A stretch of 64,000 bases of DNA from a virus: positions 62,001 through 126,000 of IMG/VR virus record IMGVR_UViG_3300020469_000011; one strand, 5' to 3'. The number at the start of each line of letters is the position of its first letter. Positions within the stretch are counted from its first letter, which is position 1. Positions 1 through 64,000 of the stretch are shown here, one piece after another. A model generated the notes under the pieces. It had not been told where the DNA came from. It was given only the letters and a program-made list of their open reading frames with translations, and made no database searches. The position numbers and the translations under genes are program-made.

Positions 1-3000
1 CTATATTAACATAATTATTATTATTGTATTCAGAAATTTTATATGTAGAATCAAATATATTTTTTGATAACAGTTCAGCTTTCACAGAAGGAATATGGTC
101 TTCCAAGTAATCTGATAGTTTTAATTTTTTCTTTTCATCAATAGTTCCATATAAGAAATCATGGCGAATAACTTTATCAATATCAAATAATTCATTTCTG
201 TTGTTTATTTCTTCAAATAATTTTTCAATATTTTCTTCATCACCTAATACAGGAATACTATCTACAAAACTACTTTCTCTGTGTCTAATAGTTGAGGATT
301 CCTTTAATTTAGTAACTAATTTTTCTTCATCTTCAAATACGCTACTTATAACATTTCTTGAATGTCCAAATGGTATTGGTCTTACATTTTCAATTTGATC
401 ACTAATCACAGCATTTTTACGTTTTTCAATTGTACCTAATAAGAAGACATCAGTTATCTTATCTTTTAATGAAACTACTGAATTGTCAACAGGAAGTATC
501 ATTTCTTCTGAAAAATCAGTCAAACTTTCGGTTTCTACGAAAGAAGCATCTAAGAAAACTGGTTGTGTTCCTATAAGGAAATCATCTACAGTTTTTAACT
601 TTGGTAGATACTTGTCTACAAATGATTGACTAATTATTGTAGGCTCATGAATTTCTTCAGACACAACTGTTCTATTAATATCAATACGATTTTCAAGTAT
701 AGTGAAATCCAAGAAGCCGTCTATTATTTCATAGTATTTTCTTAAAATAAAATCTTTTTTAGTAATTATATGTCTATCTGAAATTACATTGTGATTATTT
801 TCATATTCATGAAACTCTAATTGTTGATCTATAGTTGCGTCTAAAAATGTAGTATTTCCGAATGTTACTGTAGTGTGGGGATATTCTTTAGTAGTTAAAT
901 CTAATTCTGGTTTATAGATTATTCTTGGTTCATGAAGTGCTCTTACAGAAGGAATGTAATTTAAATCAGAAGTAACTATAGGAACATCTAAGTAATCTCC
1001 TATTAAACCATAAAACCATTTCATTCCAATTCTACGATTTCTACCCATGACAACATTTTTATCAAGAACAAATTGATTGTGTTCATATTCATGAAACTCT
1101 AATTGTTGATCTATAGTTCCATCTAAGAATGTAGTATTTGCAAATGTTACTGTTGTGAAAGGAGTAAATTTAAATGTACCATCTAGTTCAGGTTTGTAAG
1201 TTATTTCAGGTTCATTAAGTACAGAAACTGAAGGAATAGATTGTCCACCCCATTCTACTATGGTCTGTTTTCTAAATATCTCTTTTATATTTTTATTTAA
1301 GAAAGGACTAATTTTTTCTTGAGTAGCAAATATAGAAAATCTATCAGGAATAAAGGTGTCATTTTCAAAATCAAATTCTTCAATCATATCACTTGTTGCA
1401 TCTAAGAAAGTTGTATTTGGAAAATATACAGTTGTTATTGGAGTTATTACCGTCTGAGCATCTAGTTCTGGTTTATATGTTATTTCAGGCTCATTCAATA
1501 CGGAAACAGATGGTATCGTATCCTTATTGTACTCTCTCAATATTTGAGTACGCATGTTTTTTCTAATATCTTTATTTAAAAATGGATTTATAAAGTTATT
1601 CGTAGAAAAAGTTGCGAATCTATCTATTATTGATATATCATTTTCAAAATCAAACTCTTCGGTCATGTAACTTGTTGCATCTAAGAAAGTAGTATTTGGA
1701 AATGTAACTGTAGTAAATATGTCTGTTTTTGTATTTGCATCAATGTCTATTCTTCTAATATATCTTGGTTCTGTTAAAGGAACAACTCCTGGTAAAGTAT
1801 CTTTATTATATTCTTTTAAAAATTGATTCATCATATAACTTGCAATTTTTCTGTCAAACCATCTGCCAATAATATTTCCTTTAGAAAATGTACGGTTTCT
1901 ATCAAATATTGGAACATTGTGTTCAAAAGTATCTTCTATGAAAGTAGAAATAGATCCATCTAAAAATACTGTGTTTGGAAAATAAACTATTGTATGTGGA
2001 TCGTAATATGTTTTAATTTCATCAGATAATGTTCTCAAACTTTCTATATGTGTTTCTCCTAAAACTAACGCTTGAGGTAAAGCATCTTTATCATATGCTT
2101 TAACTGTTTGTAGTCTCATGGATTTTTTTATAGGTAAATTGATTACTCTATCTATACGCCTTCTTAATGAAAATAAACGATTCCTATCTATGATTTCATT
2201 CATTATTTCAATATGAGGCTCAGGAGTTTGCTCACTTAAACTACTATCCAAGAAAGTTGTGTTCGGAAAATATACAGTTGTTATTGGTGTTATAATTGGA
2301 TTAGTTATCTCAGCTAAATCTCTTAAACTTAAAATATTAGCCATTCCAGTTGCTGCCGCTATTGGTATTCTATCACCAACATATTCTAAGAAAGAATATT
2401 TTCTATACTCATCTATAAAACGATCTGTCCAAGGTTCAATTTTATCTCCATATTGGAGAAATTCATTTCTAGATAAAACATCAAATTTTACATAAGTTGT
2501 TTTTTCTTGAAATAGAACAGTAGAAGAATCTAAAAATGTTGTGTTTGGAAAATAAACTATAGTGTCAATTTGTTCAGCGATAGATACTGCCTGTTCTTGA
2601 GGCCGTACATATAAAATTGCTTCTTCTACTGTTGTGGCTCTTCTTGTTAAATCTCCTAGCCATCTTCTACTAATAGCCTTTAACCAAGGTTTAAAGAATA
2701 CAGGTACCCAAGGTTTTATAATTTGACCAAAGTCAAAAAATAAAAATCTGTCTAGCAAATCAACTTCTATTTTTCTAAATATTTCATTTTCTGCAACAGA
2801 AAATGTATTTCCGGCAGGAGCAGGATCTATTCCACCAGAAACTAAAGTAGATAAAGGTTCTAAACCATCATTAACTGCTAATAAAGAAATATTTGATAAG
2901 TATGGAATGGGTTGATCTATTTCTACGGTCGGTATTAAACTATCTACATCATCATGCATTATAAGTTTTCTACTTAAATCTGTAAGTTCGGTAGAAGATA

Positions 3001-6000
3001 TTTGAAACGGAGATATATAATTTAAAGGTATAGATATTTGTGTTCTTTCTAATACACTAGTTTTAAAATTATCTATAATAGCATGATTGATTACTGAAGG
3101 AACTTCTATTTTAACATCAAAAACAGTTCTGTCAAAAATTGTATTTTTTCTACCCTGATGTGCGAAACCAAAATCAAAAAAGAAATCGTCTCTATCAAAG
3201 CCTACATCTGTTCCACTAAATTGGAACGGTCTTTTTAAACCATATCCAAAAACATTTTCTTCTAGATGAGTTGTATATTGAGTAGGAGGACTTTCACCTA
3301 ATGTAGCATCAACTTCATTTATTCTTGAAATAACATAACGTACATTATGATTCTTAGGTATTAAATTATCTATATTAGTCCAATTTATAAGATTTCCATC
3401 TTCAACTATTGAACCTAATTTTTCTTTTTCACCAAACACATTTATATCAGCAGCAGAAATCAAAGCATTAATTCTATTTTTTTGTAAATCCTCTATTTTA
3501 TTTAAAACAGTAACAATTGCTTTAGGATCAAATTGATGGTCAGGAGAAAGTACATTAATATTTTCTGCAAGTAATGTTAAAGCTGTCATATCACTAAAAC
3601 TTATTTCATAACCTTCTATATCAACTTTTGGTTTATATCCACGTATTGCTGATATATAATTTTCAAAGGAGAGTTTAGATACTCTGTTTTTTCTTTCATT
3701 AGCGAATCTACCAATATCAAAATTAGCTGCTTCATTTTCTTCACTAACAAATCTAGCAACAGGAGTTTCATTTGGTGAAGAATGTGGTAGTGGAAATGTT
3801 ATAGTAAATGATTGATTATCTTCATTAATGACAGTGTGTAATGGTAGTTCATCTATAGCATAAGCCCGGGTATTTGCTGATGCTTCATTAGAAAGGATAT
3901 CTTCATTAAATGTTTTAAAATCTTTTGATAAGTCAAGGGTTACATAATGAAATTTATTAGGTTCACCAGTTTCTATATGTTTTAAAAATCCGCTATAGTC
4001 AGAAAAATAAAATTCTTGTCTAATTAAGTTTAGTGAAAATTCTGGTTTAGCTAGAACTACATAATCAAGGGTCAGGGGGGAAATTCGGGCTAGGTCCACC
4101 ACTATCGATGGCTCTGGGCCGAAGGTCTGGCTGTTTCCCTTTCGTACTAAAGAACTGAAAAAAAAAAGTTCGGAAGGAGCCACCTCCGGGTAAGGATTGT
4201 TAGTATTTGCGTTGGAATTAAAATCAAATATAATTGTGTTGGAAGGTGGCTCTATTTCCAACATATGTGACAAATCTATTTTTATACCTTCTAAGAAATC
4301 CTCTGTATGCAAAACATCTTCTTCTGTTCCAATTTTTGCAACAGTAAATTCATTATTAATAGCATATGACATATGTACAAAATCTAAATCTGGCTCACTT
4401 ATCTTTATACCACTCTTAATGAAATTCTCTATGTTATCTATTACAACACAATATAAAGTACCTGTATAGCTTACTCTATTTCTTGTAATGTTATTTTTTA
4501 TTCTAACCTGTTCATTTACAACAGATTCATTTGAATATAGTTTACTCAAATCTACTGTGTTAAAGAATGAAGAAGTTCTTGCAATATTTAATTTTTTGGA
4601 TTTTACCTTAAAAAGTAATTTATCTATACCTGAAGTAACTAATTCTTGTTCTTCCGTTACAGTAATAGATAGTCCTGCATTATCTGTATATTCGTATAGA
4701 TAACCATCATAATCAGACTCTATAATTAATTTGGGTTTTTTCCATTTAACAATTCCCTTTTCACTAACATCAGCTACATGATCATCATAAGTTAAATTTT
4801 TAAACATTACCCAACCACGATCTCTAGTAAGAATTTCACTTGTAGGTAAATATGCAGCTTCTCCATTTAAAGAGTTTCCACTAATTAAAGGTTTATAAAC
4901 TGCTGTTTCACTAAAATCAAATGAAGTATTACTGTATTTTACATCATCTCCGCTGGTTCTATTTCCTGTATAATCTGAGATATCACGTACTATAATCATA
5001 CCACCTCTATTAAAAGAAGCAGTGTGACGATTAATATAATCTATTGTTATTCTAAAATTATCAATGGTTTTATCTTTGGCTGAGTCAATTGGACCTGCTT
5101 TATATTTTATTAAATCAGTTCTCCAGTTAGCTTCATCTTCTACGTTTACTATTTTCATGAAAGATTCAACAGATACTAATCCATCATAGTAAAATTGTTC
5201 TGTAATTAAATTATCTTTGTTATCAGTAGCCAAATACTTATCAAAAGAAGTATTACTTTTGCGTCTATTGTTTGAGTAATAAAAATCATATAAAGGACTT
5301 TGTAATGGATTTGTTACTATATCATCTATGAAATATTTAAAAGTGGCAAATATATCAGGTATGCCATCCATACCACCACCAATTTCTACTCTATGATGAT
5401 CTTTTGTTGTAATAGTTTCATTACTAATTTGAGAGACTTGTATTGTGGGTTCTACTAATATTTTATTATCATTTAAAATAAAGTCGTCTTTGTTCAGAAG
5501 TTTATCTTTTTCTATCTGAACTACCATGTGAGGATATATTTCACTTTGTAAATATCCTGCAGTTTCGTTTTCTATTTCTGTAAATTCAAAAGTTTTTATT
5601 CTAGTTTCTAATTCAGATTCAAATTTATTTCTTATGAACGCTAAAAATCCTGCTGGATGCAATTCATCTAATAATAGAGGTTCAATTAAATCTGCTGGTA
5701 TTTTTGTTATAATTTCATAAGAATAATGTTGATAGTAATAATTATCAAAGAAATACTTATTTGATGAAAGCATACTATCATTGTTTAAGAAATCTCCAAA
5801 AGGTTCAAACAATAAACCAGTTTCATATTCAAGTTTACCTGTTAATCCATGTTCTATTAAAGAGTCATAAAATGTTAGTGTTTCCGGAGGTCTTTTGAAA
5901 ATAACTTCATCTGTATCATCTACCATCAAACCAACATCATCTATTTTTAATTCTGATATTCCATCACCTAGTTTAGACTCTAAAACAGCAGTGTCACTTA

Positions 6001-7675
6001 AAGGATTGATATTTACAAGGTCTTTAATTTCGGCAGTTAATTGAGCGTTATTATAAGTAAAAGTTACATCTGTATCGTTTTCTAAATTTGTTGCAGACCG
6101 TTGAGTAACGAATCTTTTAACTTTAACATTTTCACTCTTAATAGAAATACCATTAAATAATATAGGAGTTTCATCTGTATCAATATCTACTTCCCCTATA
6201 CAAGTTGCTAAAGTTTCATCATTTGGAACATTGGTAGCTCCTGATATAGTGAGTGAGGTATTTGCAACAATGTATTGTGCATTAGCTTCATAAGTCGCTG
6301 AGTTTACATCTGTATCAAATAATACATCAAAGTAATTTAATAAACTTGCTTGAGTTAATGAATTAAATGCAGTAGTTCTTGGTGGTAATTCATAGCCTAA
6401 TCCAGAATCTTCAAATTTAACTTCTTTAATTGAACCAACCTCATAATCTGAAGCAAAACTTACTGGAAGAACTTGTAAACTGTTAGTGTTCTGAAATGTA
6501 TTAGAACCTGAAAATACAGTGTTATTTAAATTATAATTTTGAAATGTACTTACAGGTCTATTTTTTATAGTGTTATAATAACTATTAAAAAACTGAGTTA
6601 ATGTTGGATTTACATCAATTGCAGTAACTTTAGCTTTTGCTGAATAAGTTGCTCCTGTAAATTCATTATCAAATACAATTGGATCACCGACACGATAACA
6701 AACTCCAGAATCTTTGATATCAATTTTTGTGACAGAGTGTTTCTTTAATTTAGAAATTCTACCCATACCATCATCAAAGGTAAATCTATCATCTACACTA
6801 TGACCTATTCCACCGTCTATAGGCTTTACACCAATAATAGATTCTAATATTTGAGTTCTTCCTTTTTCAACACCTGTGCTTATATCATAGGCAATAATTG
6901 TTTCATCTTTAACAAATGTTCCGTTTATATAAATTAAATCTAAAAATCCACGAAAAGTATTGTCTAGATATCTTGATACAGTATTTTTACAGGTGGCAGT
7001 AGCTCCAGATATCGTACCAACTATTCTAGCGTTACTAAATGTTGAACCATCTCTGTTGATTTTTATTTGAACTAAATTTTTCTCAGTATATCCACTATCA
7101 GAGAGCCGTAAAATATCTACTTTTGGATAATATAATTCTATGTCATCTTCAAAAAATATTCTAAAAAACCAATAATAAGAATTTTCAGTATCTTTATTTT
7201 TGTAATAATCTAATATTCTTTTAGTTAGAGTTTTTGGATCAACTCTTTTAAACACACTTTCATCAAGTGATACATTATTTTTAAAATATTTTTTAAATAC
7301 GTTTAGTGCGGTATCATAAGAAGTATTATCTTCAATATCATTCATGTATTGATATATATTTTTATAAAGACTTCTTATGAAATATATTTCTCCAGTATCA
7401 CCGTTAAATATAACTTCATTTTTATAAAACTGATTTCCTTCTGTTATATAATCAAAGTATATTCTATTGTTTGTAACAATTTTTACAACTGCTTTAGCTT
7501 TAGATAAAGAGCCGTAAATTAGATCACCTTCTGATAGTTTTTTGTTATCAGATAAAACTATAATTGAAGATTCTAAAAAGTTGTAGTATTCTTCTACAAA
7601 CTTTATGAATTGAGGGTATTGCTCATAAAAATAGTTGGGCAGTTGGCTTTCAACTAAATCTTTGGGTGTTGTCAT
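1..7675 (-). CDS. Giant virion protein, C-terminus beyond the window (at least 2558 codons)
   Basis: The frame opens with ATG at 7675, overlapping the gp6 stop as ATGA, and stays open to the left edge. The N-terminus (MTTPKDLVESQLPNYFYEQY, then a YYNFLES stretch) resembles the start of large baseplate-associated virion proteins of marine T4-like phages. The next 1500 or so residues are beta-rich and unrecognised. The C-terminal third repeats a module built on the core (T)V(Y/T)FPNTTFLDATS about every 93-97 residues. Its place directly after gp6 is where T4 has gp7, but it is far longer than T4 gp7, so homology is not claimed. It is probably a baseplate or fibre protein. One GC-rich in-frame patch lies at 4066-4192. 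Virion role is inferred from neighbours; exact function is unknown. Confidence 0.8.
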   Translation of the reverse strand, partial: MTTPKDLVESQLPNYFYEQYPQFIKFVEEYYNFLESSIIVLSDNKKLSEGDLIYGSLSKAKAVVKIVTNNRIYFDYITEGNQFYKNEVIFNGDTGEIYFIRSLYKNIYQYMNDIEDNTSYDTALNVFKKYFKNNVSLDESVFKRVDPKTLTKRILDYYKNKDTENSYYWFFRIFFEDDIELYYPKVDILRLSDSGYTEKNLVQIKINRDGSTFSNARIVGTISGATATCKNTVSRYLDNTFRGFLDLIYINGTFVKDETIIAYDISTGVEKGRTQILESIIGVKPIDGGIGHSVDDRFTFDDGMGRISKLKKHSVTKIDIKDSGVCYRVGDPIVFDNEFTGATYSAKAKVTAIDVNPTLTQFFNSYYNTIKNRPVSTFQNYNLNNTVFSGSNTFQNTNSLQVLPVSFASDYEVGSIKEVKFEDSGLGYELPPRTTAFNSLTQASLLNYFDVLFDTDVNSATYEANAQYIVANTSLTISGATNVPNDETLATCIGEVDIDTDETPILFNGISIKSENVKVKRFVTQRSATNLENDTDVTFTYNNAQLTAEIKDLVNINPLSDTAVLESKLGDGISELKIDDVGLMVDDTDEVIFKRPPETLTFYDSLIEHGLTGKLEYETGLLFEPFGDFLNNDSMLSSNKYFFDNYYYQHYSYEIITKIPADLIEPLLLDELHPAGFLAFIRNKFESELETRIKTFEFTEIENETAGYLQSEIYPHMVVQIEKDKLLNKDDFILNDNKILVEPTIQVSQISNETITTKDHHRVEIGGGMDGIPDIFATFKYFIDDIVTNPLQSPLYDFYYSNNRRKSNTSFDKYLATDNKDNLITEQFYYDGLVSVESFMKIVNVEDEANWRTDLIKYKAGPIDSAKDKTIDNFRITIDYINRHTASFNRGGMIIVRDISDYTGNRTSGDDVKYSNTSFDFSETAVYKPLISGNSLNGEAAYLPTSEILTRDRGWVMFKNLTYDDHVADVSEKGIVKWKKPKLIIESDYDGYLYEYTDNAGLSITVTEEQELVTSGIDKLLFKVKSKKLNIARTSSFFNTVDLSKLYSNESVVNEQVRIKNNITRNRVSYTGTLYCVVIDNIENFIKSGIKISEPDLDFVHMSYAINNEFTVAKIGTEEDVLHTEDFLEGIKIDLSHMLEIEPPSNTIIFDFNSNANTNNPYPEVAPSELFFFSSLVRKGNSQTFGPEPSIVVDLARISPLTLDYVVLAKPEFSLNLIRQEFYFSDYSGFLKHIETGEPNKFHYVTLDLSKDFKTFNEDILSNEASANTRAYAIDELPLHTVINEDNQSFTITFPLPHSSPNETPVARFVSEENEAANFDIGRFANERKNRVSKLSFENYISAIRGYKPKVDIEGYEISFSDMTALTLLAENINVLSPDHQFDPKAIVTVLNKIEDLQKNRINALISAADINVFGEKEKLGSIVEDGNLINWTNIDNLIPKNHNVRYVISRINEVDATLGESPPTQYTTHLEENVFGYGLKRPFQFSGTDVGFDRDDFFFDFGFAHQGRKNTIFDRTVFDVKIEVPSVINHAIIDNFKTSVLERTQISIPLNYISPFQISSTELTDLSRKLIMHDDVDSLIPTVEIDQPIPYLSNISLLAVNDGLEPLSTLVSGGIDPAPAGNTFSVAENEIFRKIEVDLLDRFLFFDFGQIIKPWVPVFFKPWLKAISRRWLGDLTRRATTVEEAILYVRPQEQAVSIAEQIDTIVYFPNTTFLDSSTVLFQEKTTYVKFDVLSRNEFLQYGDKIEPWTDRFIDEYRKYSFLEYVGDRIPIAAATGMANILSLRDLAEITNPIITPITTVYFPNTTFLDSSLSEQTPEPHIEIMNEIIDRNRLFSLRRRIDRVINLPIKKSMRLQTVKAYDKDALPQALVLGETHIESLRTLSDEIKTYYDPHTIVYFPNTVFLDGSISTFIEDTFEHNVPIFDRNRTFSKGNIIGRWFDRKIASYMMNQFLKEYNKDTLPGVVPLTEPRYIRRIDIDANTKTDIFTTVTFPNTTFLDATSYMTEEFDFENDISIIDRFATFSTNNFINPFLNKDIRKNMRTQILREYNKDTIPSVSVLNEPEITYKPELDAQTVITPITTVYFPNTTFLDATSDMIEEFDFENDTFIPDRFSIFATQEKISPFLNKNIKEIFRKQTIVEWGGQSIPSVSVLNEPEITYKPELDGTFKFTPFTTVTFANTTFLDGTIDQQLEFHEYEHNQFVLDKNVVMGRNRRIGMKWFYGLIGDYLDVPIVTSDLNYIPSVRALHEPRIIYKPELDLTTKEYPHTTVTFGNTTFLDATIDQQLEFHEYENNHNVISDRHIITKKDFILRKYYEIIDGFLDFTILENRIDINRTVVSEEIHEPTIISQSFVDKYLPKLKTVDDFLIGTQPVFLDASFVETESLTDFSEEMILPVDNSVVSLKDKITDVFLLGTIEKRKNAVISDQIENVRPIPFGHSRNVISSVFEDEEKLVTKLKESSTIRHRESSFVDSIPVLGDEENIEKLFEEINNRNELFDIDKVIRHDFLYGTIDEKKKLKLSDYLEDHIPSVKAELLSKNIFDSTYKISEYNNNNYVNI
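540..2560 (-). repeat. Tandem protein repeat, eight copies of a FPNTTFLD-type module
   Basis: The FLD(A/S/G) core, read on the minus strand, has its Asp codon at plus positions 548 (degenerate, PVFLDASF), 839, 1121, 1400, 1679, 1958, 2246 and 2528. Spacings are 291, 282, 279, 279, 279, 288 and 282 nt, all multiples of three. Between cores sit further conserved pieces such as PSVSVLNEPEITYKPELD and DRFATFS. Weaker FL(Y/L)GTI elements nearer the left edge suggest that the array continues out of the window. Confidence 0.85.
4066..4192 (-). other. GC-rich in-frame patch inside the giant gene
   Basis: About 125 bases are markedly GC-rich, with runs such as GTCAGGGGGG, in a gene that is otherwise very AT-rich. 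The reading frame is preserved on both sides; triplet phase matches at 7673, 4142 and 2246. The patch encodes a segment containing GNSQTFGPEPSIVVDLARIS with codons (GGC, GTG, GAC, CTG, CCC) rare nearby. A run of ten T on the coding strand lies at 4158-4167, flanked by GAACT and AGTTC. It may be a small horizontal insertion or an assembly chimera. Confidence 0.6.
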
Positions 7676-29538: not shown

Positions 29539-30072
29539 ATGAATCTAAACGAAGCTTTTGATTTTCATAAAAACAATAACGTACCTTATTGTTTTACTTT
29601 ATTTCAACCATACTCTTCTAGTTTTTATCACTTCTATGCTGAAGCAAGAACAAAAGAGTTTTGGCATATTGATGATAAAGAAATATTTGAAACTACTAAT
29701 TTAGGTGAATTTGATCATTATGAAGATAATTATGTTCCATTAGATTTGCCTATTCTTTGTGAATCAAGCACAGAGTATCAAGGAAAAAAAGTTGAATTGA
29801 ATAAACCAAAAAGAGGTGGTTCCAAGAAATATTATGTTTACACTAGAAATCCAGATACAAAAAAAGTAGTGAAAGTTTCTTTTGGTGCTGAAGGTGGAGG
29901 TCAAAATCTTAGAGTTAAGATTAATGATCCAGATGCTAGAAGAAATTTTGCTTCAAGACATGACTGTAAAAATAAAAAGGATAAGACTAAAGCTGGATAC
30001 TGGTCTTGTAGATTACCAAGGTATGCTTCTATGCTAGGCTTAGATGTTAAAAACCCAAACTCATTTTGGTAA
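29539..30072 (+). CDS. Conserved T4-like phage protein with Cys/His motif, 177 aa
   Basis: The C-terminal half carries a KKYYVYTRNPDTKKVVKVSF strand, then RVKINDPDARRNFASRHDC, then KTKAGYWSCRLPRYA. This motif recurs in several T4-like marine phages. The RHxC...WSCR spacing could bind a metal. The N-terminal half has aromatic clusters (TLFQPYSSSFYHFYAEA). It starts 6 nt after the helicase stop. No function is assigned. Confidence 0.7.
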   Translation: MNLNEAFDFHKNNNVPYCFTLFQPYSSSFYHFYAEARTKEFWHIDDKEIFETTNLGEFDHYEDNYVPLDLPILCESSTEYQGKKVELNKPKRGGSKKYYVYTRNPDTKKVVKVSFGAEGGGQNLRVKINDPDARRNFASRHDCKNKKDKTKAGYWSCRLPRYASMLGLDVKNPNSFW

Positions 30073-30358: not shown

Positions 30359-31174
30359 ATGTTATCTTTTAATCAGTATCTTACCGAAAAGAAAAAGAAA
30401 AAGCCTTGTTGGGATGGTTATAAACAAGTTGGCATGAAGATGAAGAACGGAAAAAAAGTTCCAAATTGTGTACCTGTCAATGAAGATTTTGATGTTGACC
30501 CAAATGATAAATTAAAACCAGTACCCACTGTAGAAGAGATTACTAAAAAACATAATGTATCTACAGAAGAAGTTGAAAAGCAAATTAAAAAAGGTACTGA
30601 TATAGAGAAAGAGCATACAGAAGATACCGATACTGCTAAACAAATTGCACATGCACATATAGATGAAGCATTAGACTACTATGAAAAATTAGCTGATTGT
30701 GTTGAAGAAGAGTTTTTAGATGAAATGTATACTAAGCCTGGATTAAGAGAAAAAATTAAAAATAGAATTAAGGCGGGTAGTAAAGGTGGTAAACCAGGAC
30801 AATGGTCAGCCAGAAAGTCTCAGATGCTTGTACAGCAGTATGAAAAAGAAGGTGGTGGTTATAAATCTAAAGGAAGGTCAAAGAAGCAGAGAAACCTATC
30901 TAGATGGTCTAAAACAGATTGGAAAACGCATGACGATAAGCCATCAATACAGGGACAAAAACATGATGAAGTTGATGCATATCTTCCTAAAGCAGCAATT
31001 GCACACATGAAAAGAAAAGATAAAGAGAACGATACGAATTTATATTCTAAAATGACAAGTCAAAAAAGAAAAGCGGCTAAATCAAATGATCAACATGCCG
31101 ATTATTCTGATGATGTAAAGAAAGCAAGAAAAGCAGCAATCAAACATGCACATAGAAGTGTTAAGGGTAAGTAA
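30359..31174 (+). CDS. Capsid-targeted-like protein with DUF5661- and DUF5872-like domains, 271 aa
   Basis: It begins MLSFNQYLTE, a leader of the same type as T4 internal proteins, directly followed by KKKKKPCWDGYKQVGMK. A DUF5661-like block (VEKQIKKGTDIEKEHTEDTD, IAHAHIDEALDYYEKLADC) is at about residues 75-120. A DUF5872-like block (GGKPGQWSARKSQMLVQQYE, then GRSKKQRNLSRWSKTDW) is at about 145-190. The C-terminus is Lys/His-rich. DUF assignments are from recall of family signatures. Such proteins are frequent in T4-like phages and may be DNA-associated head contents. The stop overlaps the next ATG by one base. Confidence 0.7.
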   Translation: MLSFNQYLTEKKKKKPCWDGYKQVGMKMKNGKKVPNCVPVNEDFDVDPNDKLKPVPTVEEITKKHNVSTEEVEKQIKKGTDIEKEHTEDTDTAKQIAHAHIDEALDYYEKLADCVEEEFLDEMYTKPGLREKIKNRIKAGSKGGKPGQWSARKSQMLVQQYEKEGGGYKSKGRSKKQRNLSRWSKTDWKTHDDKPSIQGQKHDEVDAYLPKAAIAHMKRKDKENDTNLYSKMTSQKRKAAKSNDQHADYSDDVKKARKAAIKHAHRSVKGK

Positions 31175-32421
31175 TGAAATCATTCAATCAATTTATAACT
31201 GAAAACAAAATTTTAAATGAAGGTGGTAACGCACCATTTATTAATCGTGAAACTGGAGAAAAATTGGGCGATGCTCAAAAAATAGATTTAAATAAGGTAA
31301 ACAGAACTAAATTAGCTAAAAGTTTACAGCTATTGTTTGCTCAGTTAAATAAGCTTTATGAAAAGAAACATGGTGAAAAATTATGGAATGATTTTAGTGT
31401 AATAGAAACGGGTCATGCATTCAATGGTTCTTCTGAACATTTCTTTAATAAAAATATATCTGATGCTAAATTTAAAAAACACAAGCCAATGGTAGGTGAT
31501 ATAGATGTAACTATACATAATGATGAAAAAGTAAAAATTCAAAAATTAAAACCTTTGTTCGATTTACTTTCTGAATTGGAAAACAAAAAAATAACAAATG
31601 AATTTGTATACAAAGGACAAAATAAGAAGCAACAGCAAGGACATCAGATTAATGCTATCTTTCAATTTCAGAATCCAAAGATAAATGTACAAGTTGACTT
31701 TGAAGGTGTTCACTATACAGAAGATCATAAACCTACACCATTTGCAAAGTTTGCACACAATTCATCTTGGGATGATATTGAACAAGGAATGAAAGGTGTT
31801 GGTCATAAACTGTTAATTCAGAATTTAGCAAGAGCATTATCAGAGATGAAAGATGTTGTAGTGTTAACTAAAACTTCTCCATCCGAACCACCAGAGGAGG
31901 TTAAAGTTTCTAAAGCAGCATCTTCAGATGCACCCACTAATTTAGCTTTCAGTGTTGATTTAGGAATAAGAGAAAAGTATGCTCCTGCTGTTGATTCAAA
32001 AGGCAAGCAAGTCTATGTCAATGGCAAGCCAGCATTTCGAGAATTGAAAACAGGAGACAGTAAGTATCACAAAGACATTGATGTGATTTACACAATGATC
32101 TTTAAGAAGAAACCTTCAGAGGATGGCGAGGATTTGAAAAAGTTTCACAGTTTCACTGGAACGTTGGAATTGCTCGAGTCGCATAAGGTAGAAGATGATG
32201 TCATTCGCACCATGTTCAAGTCACTGATAGAAAAAAGTCTATTTGGTAAAAATGCACAAGGTTTTGAAAAAAATAATCCAGAAGGTGACAAAAAAATTAA
32301 AATGTTGATTGTAGATATGTTAGTTAAAAAGTTTCCATATCTAAATCCTATCTTAAATGGATATGAAGAAGAAATAAAAACCTATTATAATAATTATAAA
32401 AAGGTAAAGGTTGACGCATGA
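31174..32421 (+). CDS. Polymerase-beta-type nucleotidyltransferase-like protein with capsid-targeting-like leader, 415 aa
   Basis: The leader MKSFNQFITENKILNEGG matches the T4 internal-protein targeting pattern; LNE before GG fits the T4 prohead protease preference (I/L)xE. A nucleotidyltransferase signature follows: FNGSS (about 84-87), GDIDVTI with Asp109 and Asp111, and a third Asp in VQVDFE (Asp175), i.e. GS...DxD...D. The rest has no recognised domain. Adenylyl-, uridylyl- or other transfer is possible; the substrate is unknown. Codon use is locally atypical at about 31990-32225. The stop overlaps the next start by 4 nt, coupling it to the ligase-like gene. Confidence 0.7.
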   Translation: MKSFNQFITENKILNEGGNAPFINRETGEKLGDAQKIDLNKVNRTKLAKSLQLLFAQLNKLYEKKHGEKLWNDFSVIETGHAFNGSSEHFFNKNISDAKFKKHKPMVGDIDVTIHNDEKVKIQKLKPLFDLLSELENKKITNEFVYKGQNKKQQQGHQINAIFQFQNPKINVQVDFEGVHYTEDHKPTPFAKFAHNSSWDDIEQGMKGVGHKLLIQNLARALSEMKDVVVLTKTSPSEPPEEVKVSKAASSDAPTNLAFSVDLGIREKYAPAVDSKGKQVYVNGKPAFRELKTGDSKYHKDIDVIYTMIFKKKPSEDGEDLKKFHSFTGTLELLESHKVEDDVIRTMFKSLIEKSLFGKNAQGFEKNNPEGDKKIKMLIVDMLVKKFPYLNPILNGYEEEIKTYYNNYKKVKVDA

Positions 32422-34031
32422 TGTCTTTTAAAACATTTTCCCTTAGAGAAAATTATATTATTGAAGCCGCAGGTAATGCAATGCTTGATGTATCTATTAC
32501 AAATGCAGATAAAGCCTTCAAAAATAAAACAAAATTCTTTTACTATGTTGGAGATGATGAAAAATTATTAAGTGAAAAGGAATACTCAATAGAAGAAAAA
32601 TATGACGGCGTGAAGCTTACCTTATTTCGTAATGGAAAAGATTTTGATTCTAAAAACTTTGAAAATAATTGGGTTATAGCCTACAAAAATAGAAAATTAC
32701 ATCCAAGTGAATTTAAATCTACGTCTGCTGCAAATGTAAAACAAAAAGGTATTGGTGTTTCTCAGTATAAAATTATTGCAGATCATTTGAAAAAAATACA
32801 TAAGAGTTTAGATTCAATACCAAAGAATACAGAATTTTTTGTTGAATTTTTAATGCAAAAATCTACCTTAACTAGAACATATGAAAATAAACATGGTGTT
32901 GTGTTAATAGGATATTCACATAATGCTAAAGTAGATCAAGAAGACGATTTTCGTTTCTATACAAAAGAAACTAAATTAAATCAAAGTTTAAATCAAGAAT
33001 ATGCTAAGTTACTGAAATTAGATCTACCTCAAATATTATTTGAAGGAGGTGTTGGTTCTTTTGAAAATTTGAAAGAAGGTGCTTTAGATGATGAACTTAA
33101 AAAACTTCTAAGGAAAAATAAAACCAAAATTCAAGAATTTTACAAGTATAAAAAATGGGATGACTTATATGAATTAATCAAAACTATTTTTCTAGATGTG
33201 TCAAGTTTTTATGGTGGTGTGATGGAAGGAGTTGTACTAAAAGATATTAAACAAAAAACAATGTACAAATTTCTCCAAACAGACCAACATGATAAAGAGT
33301 TTCGTCAGAAGATAAAACAACAATATAAAATGGATGAAGATAAAGAAAAGGAATATTATAAAACTCTAGATAAACTTGCTAAAGATATTTTGAGTAAATT
33401 AGATTTGAGCAAAGAACACTCTGAAATAATGAGTGATTTATCAACTGCTGTTTACAAGAAAAAATTACCAAGAAATTTACATACCAAGAGAAACGATCAT
33501 CAAATAAAAGAAGATCTTCATTTAAAAGTAAAAGATGCATTTGAAAAAATGCTTAAAGGTTGGGGTGGTGTAGTAGGTAAATTTAGAATTGTTACTAAAG
33601 AACATGTAAACATGATAGACTATGCTCTTAAAAAATACAAAGGTGTTTCTGTAATGCTTGTTGCAGGCTCTAGAGATATTATGTTAGTTCAAGAGAATAT
33701 GAAAATTTTTAAAGAAATATTTAAAGACAAACCGGCAGAATTTTTTATAGCTAAGACCGGAAACATAATAAGATTAGAGCAACTTACTAGAAATCCTATT
33801 GTTGCTTATGTAGCTGGACCAGATAGAAAAGAAGATTATCAAAAACAAATTGAGGGTGCTAATAGCGATGCAGTTGTAGATGTTTATGATGGAGGAAAAA
33901 GAGATGAAATTTCTGCATCAAAAGCAGAAGAAGCTTTGATGGCAAATGATGTACAATCATTAAGAAAAATTGTACATCCAGTTGCTCTTAAAAATATTGA
34001 TAAATGGGAAAAATATTACAGTAAATTTTAA
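32418..34031 (+). CDS. ATP-dependent ligase/nucleotidyltransferase fused to an adenylyltransferase-like domain, 537 aa
   Basis: Residues 55-320 carry covalent nucleotidyltransferase motifs: motif I EEKYDGVKL with Lys61, an EFFVEFL motif III-like strand, a MEGVVLKD motif IV-like strand and MYKFLQ (motif V-like). The C-terminal part, from about residue 385, resembles HxGH-type nucleotidylyltransferases: GKFRIVTKEHVNMI in place of the usual G(R)F(x)P(x)(H/T)xGH, and ISASKAEEAL in place of ISxTxxR. The HxGH motif is degenerate (TKEH), so activity of that half is uncertain. The leader (SFKTFSLRENYIIE before AAG) resembles capsid-targeting leaders. It could be an RNA ligase or a NAD-related enzyme. 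Confidence 0.7.
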   Translation: MMSFKTFSLRENYIIEAAGNAMLDVSITNADKAFKNKTKFFYYVGDDEKLLSEKEYSIEEKYDGVKLTLFRNGKDFDSKNFENNWVIAYKNRKLHPSEFKSTSAANVKQKGIGVSQYKIIADHLKKIHKSLDSIPKNTEFFVEFLMQKSTLTRTYENKHGVVLIGYSHNAKVDQEDDFRFYTKETKLNQSLNQEYAKLLKLDLPQILFEGGVGSFENLKEGALDDELKKLLRKNKTKIQEFYKYKKWDDLYELIKTIFLDVSSFYGGVMEGVVLKDIKQKTMYKFLQTDQHDKEFRQKIKQQYKMDEDKEKEYYKTLDKLAKDILSKLDLSKEHSEIMSDLSTAVYKKKLPRNLHTKRNDHQIKEDLHLKVKDAFEKMLKGWGGVVGKFRIVTKEHVNMIDYALKKYKGVSVMLVAGSRDIMLVQENMKIFKEIFKDKPAEFFIAKTGNIIRLEQLTRNPIVAYVAGPDRKEDYQKQIEGANSDAVVDVYDGGKRDEISASKAEEALMANDVQSLRKIVHPVALKNIDKWEKYYSKF

Positions 34032-50967: not shown

Positions 50968-51492
50968 ATGAAAAAAACATACAATCAATTTGTAGAAAGT
51001 ATTCTTTTAGAAAAAAAGAAAAAGAATAAAAAAGAACCAGATAGTGATCTTTTTTTAGATAATGAAGAAGAAGAGGAAGAAGAACCTACTGATGAAGAAG
51101 AATCTACTGATGAAGAAGAATCTGAAGATACTGAAGAGGATACTCCAGAAGAAGGTGAGGAAGATGAGCCAGAACCAAAAGAGGATGAAAAAGAATACGA
51201 TCCTGATGACGAAGAAAAAGTTAAGACTTCAAAACAAGATACTGAGAAAAAAGCTTTAAAAAACGTATCAACTGACGTAGAAGATAGTGATATGGAAAGT
51301 GATGAAATTGAAGACAAAATTGATGATGAAATAGAGTATTTAGAAACTGATAAAGAAAGAAATGAAAAATTATCTTATAAAGATAAAAAAGAAGAAGAAG
51401 AAAAACAGAAAAAAGAAAAACAAGATAAAGAAGATAATAAAACTAAAATCGTTATCAATCCTAACATCACAGAACATTTAAATAACTGGTAA
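50968..51492 (+). CDS. Acidic prohead-core-like protein with capsid-targeting-like leader, 174 aa
   Basis: The leader MKKTYNQFVESILLE precedes a basic KKKKNKK patch, then a long Glu/Asp-rich body (a run of seven Glu within residues 32-40, many TDEEE repeats), ending TKIVINPNITEHLNNW. T4 gp67, an abundant prohead core protein, is similarly acidic and processed by the head protease. The leader LLE before KKKK fits the (I/L)xE cleavage preference. Position beside replication genes is not T4-like. Core function inferred from composition. Confidence 0.6.
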   Translation: MKKTYNQFVESILLEKKKKNKKEPDSDLFLDNEEEEEEEPTDEEESTDEEESEDTEEDTPEEGEEDEPEPKEDEKEYDPDDEEKVKTSKQDTEKKALKNVSTDVEDSDMESDEIEDKIDDEIEYLETDKERNEKLSYKDKKEEEEKQKKEKQDKEDNKTKIVINPNITEHLNNW

Positions 51493-62112: not shown

Positions 62113-63111
62113 CTACTCCTTTTTAATTTTATCAATATATTTTTTAACTATATTTGGTTTCATTTGATGTTCTTTCTCATCAATTATCTGAACATTAAGA
62201 CCTTTAACAATTTCTCTGAATTCAGAATTCGTTACCTTTGCGTTTTCTAATGCTTCTTCAATATAATAAACTTGTAATATTTTAAAGTTAGATAAAACTA
62301 TTTCATCATAGTCTAAATATTTGGAACCTGATGTCCATTTTTTACTCTGCATATTTGGCCAGCGCATAATAAGTTCATTAAAAACTTTGCGATATTCTTT
62401 TTTACTTTTAATAATCCTTTCAGTTCCAGCAACATATTGTCTTATATATTTCTGTTTAACATCGCCTGAAATATCATAAGGAGTATAATCATTTTCTTTA
62501 TCTCCATATTCATCACGAAGTTTTTTGAGTAAATTTTGTTTAAATATAACTAGTTTTTGAAGTAAAAGTTTGTATTGATAAAATTTCATTTCTTTTTCGG
62601 CAGATGTCATTTTATTTTTTTTTGATTTCCCATCTAAAAAGAATTCGATATATGATGATGACATAATTGAACTATCACTATCTCCACTTATATCAATAAC
62701 TCTCACTCCTTTTTTATCTGGCTTGCTCATGATGTCGCCAGCTTGACCCATTAGTGCAGTTCCTTCTAAAATAGTAATAACACCACCCCCATCATCCCAA
62801 ATTCCATACAACATTGTTCCAATATTATCAACAGTAAAAGCTGAAATTTGTTTTGTTCTTTTATTTTGAAGTTTTTTAAGTTTATCTAAACCTTTTACTC
62901 CAGAGGAATGTGCAGCTATTAAACGCACTGGTGTTGAAACTCTTTCTATAAATTTTTGATCAAGAATAAGATGAAAACTTTTATCTTTTTCATCTTGAAA
63001 TATATATTCTTTGTCATCAGCCAGCAATCCATCTGCTTCCATGAATATATGGTCAAATAAAGACCGCTGCCATTGAACCTCTTCGTTTACTACTTCTTTA
63101 AATGACTTCAT
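62113..63111 (-). CDS. Unrecognised protein with capsid-targeting-like leader, 332 aa
   Basis: It begins MKSFKEVVNEEVQW, similar in style to the capsid-targeting-like leaders elsewhere in the window (MKSFNQFITE). A TPVRLIAAHSSGVKGLDKLK segment followed by LQNKRTKQISAF recurs in marine phage proteins and has some likeness to ADP-ribosyltransferase-type folds, but this is weak. The C-terminal part is Lys-rich and helical. The stop lies 1 nt from the lipoprotein ATG. Function unknown. Confidence 0.65.
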   Translation of the reverse strand: MKSFKEVVNEEVQWQRSLFDHIFMEADGLLADDKEYIFQDEKDKSFHLILDQKFIERVSTPVRLIAAHSSGVKGLDKLKKLQNKRTKQISAFTVDNIGTMLYGIWDDGGGVITILEGTALMGQAGDIMSKPDKKGVRVIDISGDSDSSIMSSSYIEFFLDGKSKKNKMTSAEKEMKFYQYKLLLQKLVIFKQNLLKKLRDEYGDKENDYTPYDISGDVKQKYIRQYVAGTERIIKSKKEYRKVFNELIMRWPNMQSKKWTSGSKYLDYDEIVLSNFKILQVYYIEEALENAKVTNSEFREIVKGLNVQIIDEKEHQMKPNIVKKYIDKIKKE

Positions 63112-64000
63112 TTATTTTTTAGTTGAATTTTTTCTGCATCAGAAAGTTGATTGTTTTTATCTAATACACTTACAAGTGCGTTTGATACCTTTGCTGAGAG
63201 TCTATTTGTATGAACAAGATCAAGTATACGGTTCTTTAACATTCTTATAGCTCTATCATCTCTCAAACTCTGAAGAGTTTTTGAACCTTTTGACTTAGTT
63301 TCACCTGTGAATACTTTATCAAAGATTGCTGGAAAAGCCTCTTGAACTTCTGCAGGTATCTTATATTGTTTCTTTGACTCAATAGGTATATCATAATTTG
63401 TTAACATGTGAACATTGATTGGCTCATCTTTAATCACATCAATAATAGTTTTTGAACTTGGATTTAAATGAAGAATTGCTGAAAGATTTTGCGGTCTTCT
63501 TTGAACTAAGTTGTTCAAGTCCTCTTGAGAAAATTTGATTTCAGAATGATTGATTAAAAAATCACGAACTTCTTTTGGACTGATATTTCTGGCAAGAGAA
63601 AGCATGAGTGATTTATGGTCAACATCAATCATTTGGTCATAATAGTCTAAGTCTTTGTCCAATATTTCTTTTTCAACAATCGGTGGTAACTTTTGTGTCA
63701 TCTTCTTCTTGTCAAGTAATGTCTTCTTATCCTTATCTTTTTTTGTCAGTATACGAACAAGGTCAGGATATTTTTCACGGGGTATCTCACTGATGTTCTT
63801 ACCTCTGCGAATATGAGTTTCTAACTCACCTTCTCTCTTTGCAAATTTTGTTGAACTATGTTTCTTATTATATTCTACATCTTTATTCGGAATAATTTTA
63901 ACAACCTTATAACCTTTGCGACTAAAAAACACGGCTTGTCTTGGTTCATTTTCATGAACTACACCTAATCCAGGATCTTCAACAAGGTCATAATAGAATT
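63108..64000 (-). CDS. Unrecognised protein, start beyond the right edge
   Basis: The frame is open to the window edge, and the codons before the GTG at 63932 (a VEDPGLGVVHENEPRQA segment) read as protein-like, so the true start probably lies outside. The visible part is Lys-rich and helical. It ends 4 nt into the downstream 332-aa gene, giving ATGA coupling. No domain recognised. Confidence 0.65.
   Translation of the reverse strand, partial: FYYDLVEDPGLGVVHENEPRQAVFFSRKGYKVVKIIPNKDVEYNKKHSSTKFAKREGELETHIRRGKNISEIPREKYPDLVRILTKKDKDKKTLLDKKKMTQKLPPIVEKEILDKDLDYYDQMIDVDHKSLMLSLARNISPKEVRDFLINHSEIKFSQEDLNNLVQRRPQNLSAILHLNPSSKTIIDVIKDEPINVHMLTNYDIPIESKKQYKIPAEVQEAFPAIFDKVFTGETKSKGSKTLQSLRDDRAIRMLKNRILDLVHTNRLSAKVSNALVSVLDKNNQLSDAEKIQLKNK

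Follow-up and report, generated by a model that had tools for sequence, protein, structure and literature searches.

What do the short N-terminal leaders do that precede several predicted proteins of an uncultured phage, IMG/VR record IMGVR_UViG_3300020469_000011? The window analyzed here is a 64,000-nucleotide stretch, bases 62001-126000 of the 146,510-base record, and positions refer to it unless given as record coordinates, which count from record base 1. The record, a fragment of a T4-like phage, encodes replication and baseplate functions of T4 type and a DNA polymerase ~42% identical to Synechococcus myovirus counterparts. As a whole, the evidence is best explained by T4-type capsid-targeting propeptides on packaged, ejected RNA-repair enzymes, a reading that we consider likely. 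Packaging is its well-supported part, and ejection and RNA repair are inferred. The best-supported cargo consists of a pol-beta nucleotidyltransferase (mature N-terminus GGN) and an RNA-ligase/adenylyltransferase fusion:

31174..31221, plus strand: leader MKSFNQFITENKILNE (16 residues), then GGN; predicted N-terminus of the pol-beta-type nucleotidyltransferase
31222..32421, plus strand: mature pol-beta superfamily nucleotidyltransferase, 399 residues predicted (catalytic motifs, Foldseek)
start 32418, plus strand: leader (M)MSFKTFSLRENYIIE; predicted N-terminus of the RNA-ligase/adenylyltransferase fusion
32418..32465, plus strand: leader of this fusion as MMSFKTFSLRENYIIE (16 residues), predicted cut before A
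32466..34031, plus strand: putative Rnl2-like RNA ligase joined to a HIGH-type adenylyltransferase (Foldseek, profiles, invariant residues)

Leaders end where leaderless homologues begin

In both families the leader is modular, and an (I/L)xE motif at its end falls exactly on the boundary of the mature domain. Nucleotidyltransferases of Vibrio phages start with M, then GGN; those of Campylobacter phages start with MKLSELMFILE, then GGN; and that of this phage starts with ...KILNE, then GGN. Leaders occur in 22 of 49 deduplicated IMG/VR relatives, with E at P1 and L, I or M at P3 in 22/22 (E makes up 7% of the residues of these proteins), and the other 27 effectively begin with M, then GGN. All 34 aligned homologues retain GGN directly behind the predicted cut. 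Because leaderless nucleotidyltransferases have no E at this position, the residue is not part of the folded domain, and the leaders are so diverse (MYTFKEYIDLNE, MLLRELFIKTKRAILE, MKTFNQHRKQLQE) that they cannot reflect simple descent of one peptide.

The ligase family follows the same arrangement: 28 of 29 leaders place [ILVMF]xE within 7 residues of the start of the LDISI domain (5,000 shuffles: mean 7.8, maximum 18), leaderless homologues begin with M, then LDISI, and the leaders are again very diverse, e.g., MKLRDFINE (then S), MNFVQYINE (then G) and MKRFSDLIFE (then A). Homologues were counted after deduplication by shared 5-mers and without phylogeny correction, so all shuffle figures are guides, not exact probabilities. 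AlphaFold models of both enzymes are confident from soon after the predicted cut and leave the leaders unfolded: predicted local distance difference test (pLDDT) values stay under 50 across most of residues 1-15 of the nucleotidyltransferase, reach at least 93 from block 21-30 on, and are below 50 for residues 1-24 of the ligase fusion.

Since the predicted cut site coincides with the start of leaderless homologues, we read the leaders of these two enzymes as T4-type propeptides. The first-pass annotation had proposed cleavage after (I/L)xE for five leaders; the proposal is well supported at 31174-32421 and 32418-34031, and at 30359, 50968 and 63111 it comes down to motif resemblance.

Leader motifs compared with chance

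Could AT-rich coding sequence simply generate starts of the MKSF..F..E kind, given that F, K, I and E are, by inspection, frequent in this genome? A capsid-targeting-like (CTS-like) pattern occurs in 12 of 178 open reading frames (ORFs) of the record, whereas 3,000 residue shuffles gave 1.8 on average and never more than 8. This excess and both boundary tests contradict a chance origin, to which we give next to no weight. A looser pattern finds 13 matches in the record (3.7 expected, maximum 11 in 2,000 shuffles). The short leader with an aromatic or hydrophobic core that characterizes T4-type internal head proteins is present here, and T4 itself served as positive control: IPII and IPIII fit the strict pattern (both MKTYQEFIAE, cut before A), and IPI (MKTFKEFTSTTTPVSTITE, cut before A) shares their core but escapes the strict pattern, its ITE site lying further along. 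The 10-residue and 16-19-residue leader forms found here thus both have T4 counterparts. The strict pattern also fits 2 of 25 other T4 coding sequences, by chance, and in the cultured phage HTVC008M the 6 matches to the permissive pattern do not differ significantly from the 2.7 expected. The motif alone is therefore weak evidence, which is why the homologue boundaries were compared. The late-promoter motif TATAAATA was uninformative: it is underrepresented in the window and precedes a single leader gene.

Prohead protease and virion evidence in relatives

In T4, the prohead protease gp21 cuts at L/I-x-E, targeting leaders have 10-19 residues, and Alt is cut at its C-terminal end (PMC9026906). 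Relatives of the present phage encode such a protease: a gp21-family member occurs in 9 of 17 records with the nucleotidyltransferase or ligase, exactly the nine that have gp23, and the 14-kb contig of L037 is a tenth record with the protease. The capsid proteins of carrier records have LNE/G, ISE/G, FSE/A, FTE/A or VGE/S ahead of the capsid domain, sites predicted by analogy with T4.

Similar leaders are found in cultured phages. The T4-GC190 cytidylyltransferase of cyanophages begins with MKKFSAFLTE in P-SSM7, MKKFSAFLSE in syn9 and MKKFSAFLNE in S-SM1, each followed by A, and its gene adjoins a ligase-like DUF6267 gene; a literature search found no paper naming DUF6267. T4-GC190 was detected by mass spectrometry in purified S-SM1 virions (PMC3037559). 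The S-SM1 orthologue is L196 3501-4664; that of S-PM2 (S-PM2p139, L199 1865-3037) does not have this leader and was undetected in S-PM2 virions, a contrast that is only suggestive since it is confounded by proteome depth (in S-PM2, gp21 and further known virion proteins also escaped proteomics). In HTVC008M, a single cluster combines MLSFTGYSNLSE (then A), a DUF6267 protein starting with MYNDLLVE (then D) and a kinase starting with MIPFILKE (then G).

These observations also bear on whether the N-terminal segments are instead helices that stay uncut and dock their enzymes onto another phage or host protein, their likeness to T4 leaders being convergence. Short amphipathic helices are common, leader cleavage is deduced here from sequence, and HTVC008M shows no enrichment of the permissive pattern, all of which docking helices would accommodate. 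They would, however, leave unexplained why E stands exactly before GGN in all leader-bearing homologues and is absent from leaderless ones, why capsid proteins have a matching motif, and why leader-bearing T4-GC190 is in virions, and we judge this explanation quite improbable.

Identity of the putative cargo

The catalytic residues of both enzymes are intact. In the nucleotidyltransferase, G85-S86, D109xD111 and D175, the GS...DxD...D set of pol-beta enzymes, are invariant in 34 homologues, and Foldseek ranks DNA polymerase beta/mu best (probability 0.99, E 3.7e-3), a weak match with a low TM-score; catalytic motif and fold together place the protein in the pol-beta nucleotidyltransferase superfamily. 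It belongs to phrog_19290, annotated as of unknown function. Identity with RlaP (PF10127) was rejected: a search at E<=1 found this family nowhere in the record, and one at E<=0.1 found it in none of the 34 homologues. In other phages (L063, L078, L080, L090, L093 and others), the GGN nucleotidyltransferase with its leader heads proteins of 975-1,440 residues, several of which end in DYLEEK or have a CVPVSE motif near the C-terminus.

For the ligase fusion, Foldseek returned T4 RNA ligase 2 (2hvr, E 3.5e-7) and PPAT/NMNAT structures. PF09414 is matched by 4 of 25 homologues, with no match for the window protein itself, and PF01467 by 20 of 25, with the window protein below the limit. Membership in the HIGH/CTP_transf_like nucleotidylyltransferases is thus supported by the PPAT/NMNAT folds, by TxxH and ISxT motifs and, at the level of homologues, by the profile. 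Motif I (K61xDG), K284, H396 and S499 are invariant among homologues of the fusion, and a homologue search of GTDB genomes gave no match to it in cellular genomes.

In ten relatives a small P-loop AAA_33 kinase is encoded close to the nucleotidyltransferase/ligase genes, and every one of these kinases bears a separate (I/L)xE leader (10/10, null mean 2.8):

L028 8230-8751: AAA_33 kinase
L062 9203-9724: AAA_33 kinase
L046 4965-5498: AAA_33 kinase
L035 10198-10749: AAA_33 kinase
six more loci: AAA_33 kinase

Four adjacent genes are tagged in L028. Fusions also link these partners: nucleotidyltransferase and ligase form one chain in L102 (1444-4320) and L109 (934-3798), and L037 7652-9622 encodes a kinase-ligase fusion with a leader-like linker, RLIIE, followed by SDMLDVSIK.

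Tags may also occur at the other end. Among 18 complete nucleotidyltransferases starting with M-GGN, 11 have [ILV]xE[ST] and a short segment at the C-terminal end (0.7 expected), as in LRE followed by SFRDYLNTLGE (loci include L030 8551-9741, L054 3594-4799 and L024 6335-7516), and the amphipathic segment of these tails resembles an N-terminal leader. Since C-terminal cutting is also known from T4 Alt, the tails look like C-terminal propeptides and are, by this analogy, possible capsid-targeting tags. Strict exclusivity of leader and tail was rejected: the C-terminal motif also occurs in 4 of 13 nucleotidyltransferases with N-terminal leaders, so that some bear both.

Proposed role and its alternatives

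The cargo resembles enzymes of RNA-end repair more than effectors that attack the host. Under the proposed mechanism, late-made leaders would carry the attached proteins into the prohead core, where a gp21-family (S77) prohead protease would cut after (I/L)xE, leaving the mature enzymes in the head with the DNA, to be ejected into the next host. There, the nucleotidyltransferase, the ligase fusion and, in relatives, the leader-bearing P-loop kinase would mend damaged RNA by healing, refilling and sealing its broken ends (probably in tRNAs cut by host defenses) before any phage protein is made. For this phage, cutting, packaging and ejection are steps that the leaders and their boundaries predict.

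Several observations weigh against this reading. None of gp21, gp23, portal and terminase turned up in searches of the record, so that a protease is attested in relatives and not in this phage; because protease, capsid, portal and terminase genes are all missing, we take the record to be a fragment, and its closest relatives are likewise fragments without a head module. The head protease that the first-pass annotation had expected elsewhere in the genome is thus missing from the record along with the whole head module, and a gp21-family protease came to light in relatives instead. Virion presence is known only for the leader-bearing T4-GC190 of S-SM1. In Vibrio phages both proteins occur without leader or C-tail, and contigs L039 and L045 are also untagged, so packaging is not universal. 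The two proteins of Campylobacter phage CP220, CPT_0100 and CPT_0026, are absent from its 11 listed virion bands, a weak test given so few bands. Finally, the record has no AAA_33 kinase and no RlaP match, and the putative RNA-repair function therefore rests on folds and neighbors.

The leaders could also target proteins and be cut as proposed, with the cargo serving head assembly or in-particle genome repair, for example of nicks in packaged DNA. Rnl2-type ligases seal duplex nicks, and pol-beta and ligase pairs occur in DNA repair too; moreover, T4 IPIII affects head assembly (PMC9026906). However, the P-loop end-healing kinase and HIGH adenylyltransferase in the set fit RNA repair better, and Vibrio phages keep the enzyme pair untagged, which makes a structural or genome-repair role unlikely in our view.

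Leader-directed packaging as a general mechanism is already known from T4, while the cargo looks new. As in T4 IPI, IPII, IPIII and Alt (PMC9026906), the N-terminal leaders have 10-19 residues, an aromatic core and an L/IxE cut motif; a gp21-family protease occurs in relatives, and C-terminal processing may be an option as in Alt. Unlike T4 internal proteins, the cargo consists of large nucleic-acid repair-type enzymes, about a dozen genes are tagged in one phage, and leaders stand on proteins whose relatives elsewhere are leaderless. T4-GC190 of S-SM1, a virion-detected protein of a T4-like phage, shares a leader of the MKKFSAFLNE kind and a nucleotidylyltransferase fold; unlike the window fusion it has no ligase domain, and its leader is undiscussed in the consulted passages of PMC3037559. 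Phage RNA-repair systems (PMC7824862) likewise place a pol-beta nucleotidyltransferase beside an RNA ligase and kinase, but here there is no PF10127 match, the ligase is fused to a HIGH adenylyltransferase, and the enzymes would be packaged where theirs are newly made. Polyvalent proteins (PMC5512222) are a further group of phage enzymes believed to enter alongside the DNA, and pol-beta nucleotidyltransferases are among them; those are multidomain polypeptides, whereas here we find mostly separate proteins with short, putatively removable tags.

Phages facing RNA-cutting defenses are currently viewed as expressing repair enzymes after entry; if enzymes arrived with the DNA, they would act ahead of any phage gene expression. 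A broader proposal, which we advance tentatively, is that T4-like phages widely inject a head-borne RNA-repair kit (end-healing kinase, nucleotide-restoring pol-beta enzyme, RNA ligase/adenylyltransferase) that would undo the damage of tRNA- or rRNA-cutting defenses as soon as infection begins, with a tag that may sit at either end and move between partners. Since the tag can be read from sequence by comparing tagged with untagged homologues, the packaged cargo of thousands of uncultured T4-like phages might be listed without proteomics.

Other leader-bearing proteins of the record

All five leaders reported by the first-pass annotation are present as predicted N-termini, and the whole record has 12-14 leader-bearing proteins, where shuffles lead one to expect about 2. 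Those other than the two enzymes are:

30359..30388, plus strand: leader MLSFNQYLTE (10 residues), predicted N-terminus; fits the CTS-like pattern
30389..31174, plus strand: 271-residue protein minus this leader; DUF5661 (PF18905, 1e-7), phrog_17747; CWDGYK..VPNCVPVNE motif
50968..51492, plus strand: very acidic 174-residue protein (ORF call), no family match; leader MKKTYNQFVESILLE from 50968, predicted N-terminus
62113..63111, minus strand: 332-residue protein (ORF call); leader MKSFKEVVNE from 63111, predicted N-terminus
63108..64000, minus strand, partial (record 125108-126718): 536-residue protein, leader MKSFHSFITE, predicted cut before A (ORF scan)
record 12700: leader MKSFKEFQEVILE (ORF scan, whole record)
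record 50672: leader MKTYKNFCIYLSE (ORF scan, whole record)
record 140416: leader MISFSNFCTNFLIE (ORF scan, whole record)
record 142794: leader MITFNEYLKE (ORF scan, whole record)
record 143941: leader MKKFKEFISE (ORF scan, whole record)
record 144255-144872 (L005 19255-19872): leader MKTFNQFLIE on a 205-residue protein, phrog_4301, weak YrbL match

The true start of the 536-residue protein is record 126718, just beyond the window, and a GTG start at 63932 is a window-edge artefact. Family searches with the 332-residue and 174-residue proteins gave no match; the latter is possibly a core-type packaged protein. The 205-residue protein has kinase-like features and is a possible candidate for a packaged kinase.

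Over window positions ~700-7670 no large ORF is listed, and a very long minus-strand gene probably crosses the edge of the scanned pieces. The 271-residue protein is encoded first in a three-gene run and has a basic C-terminal half; its sequence is compatible with a possible second cut at VNE/D, residue 43. Just upstream of this run, a basic 177-residue protein (29539-30072) has an internal ILCE followed by S and is possibly also processed; its C-terminal region is resembled in HTVC008M gp131, where it is preceded by LEE, then AE.

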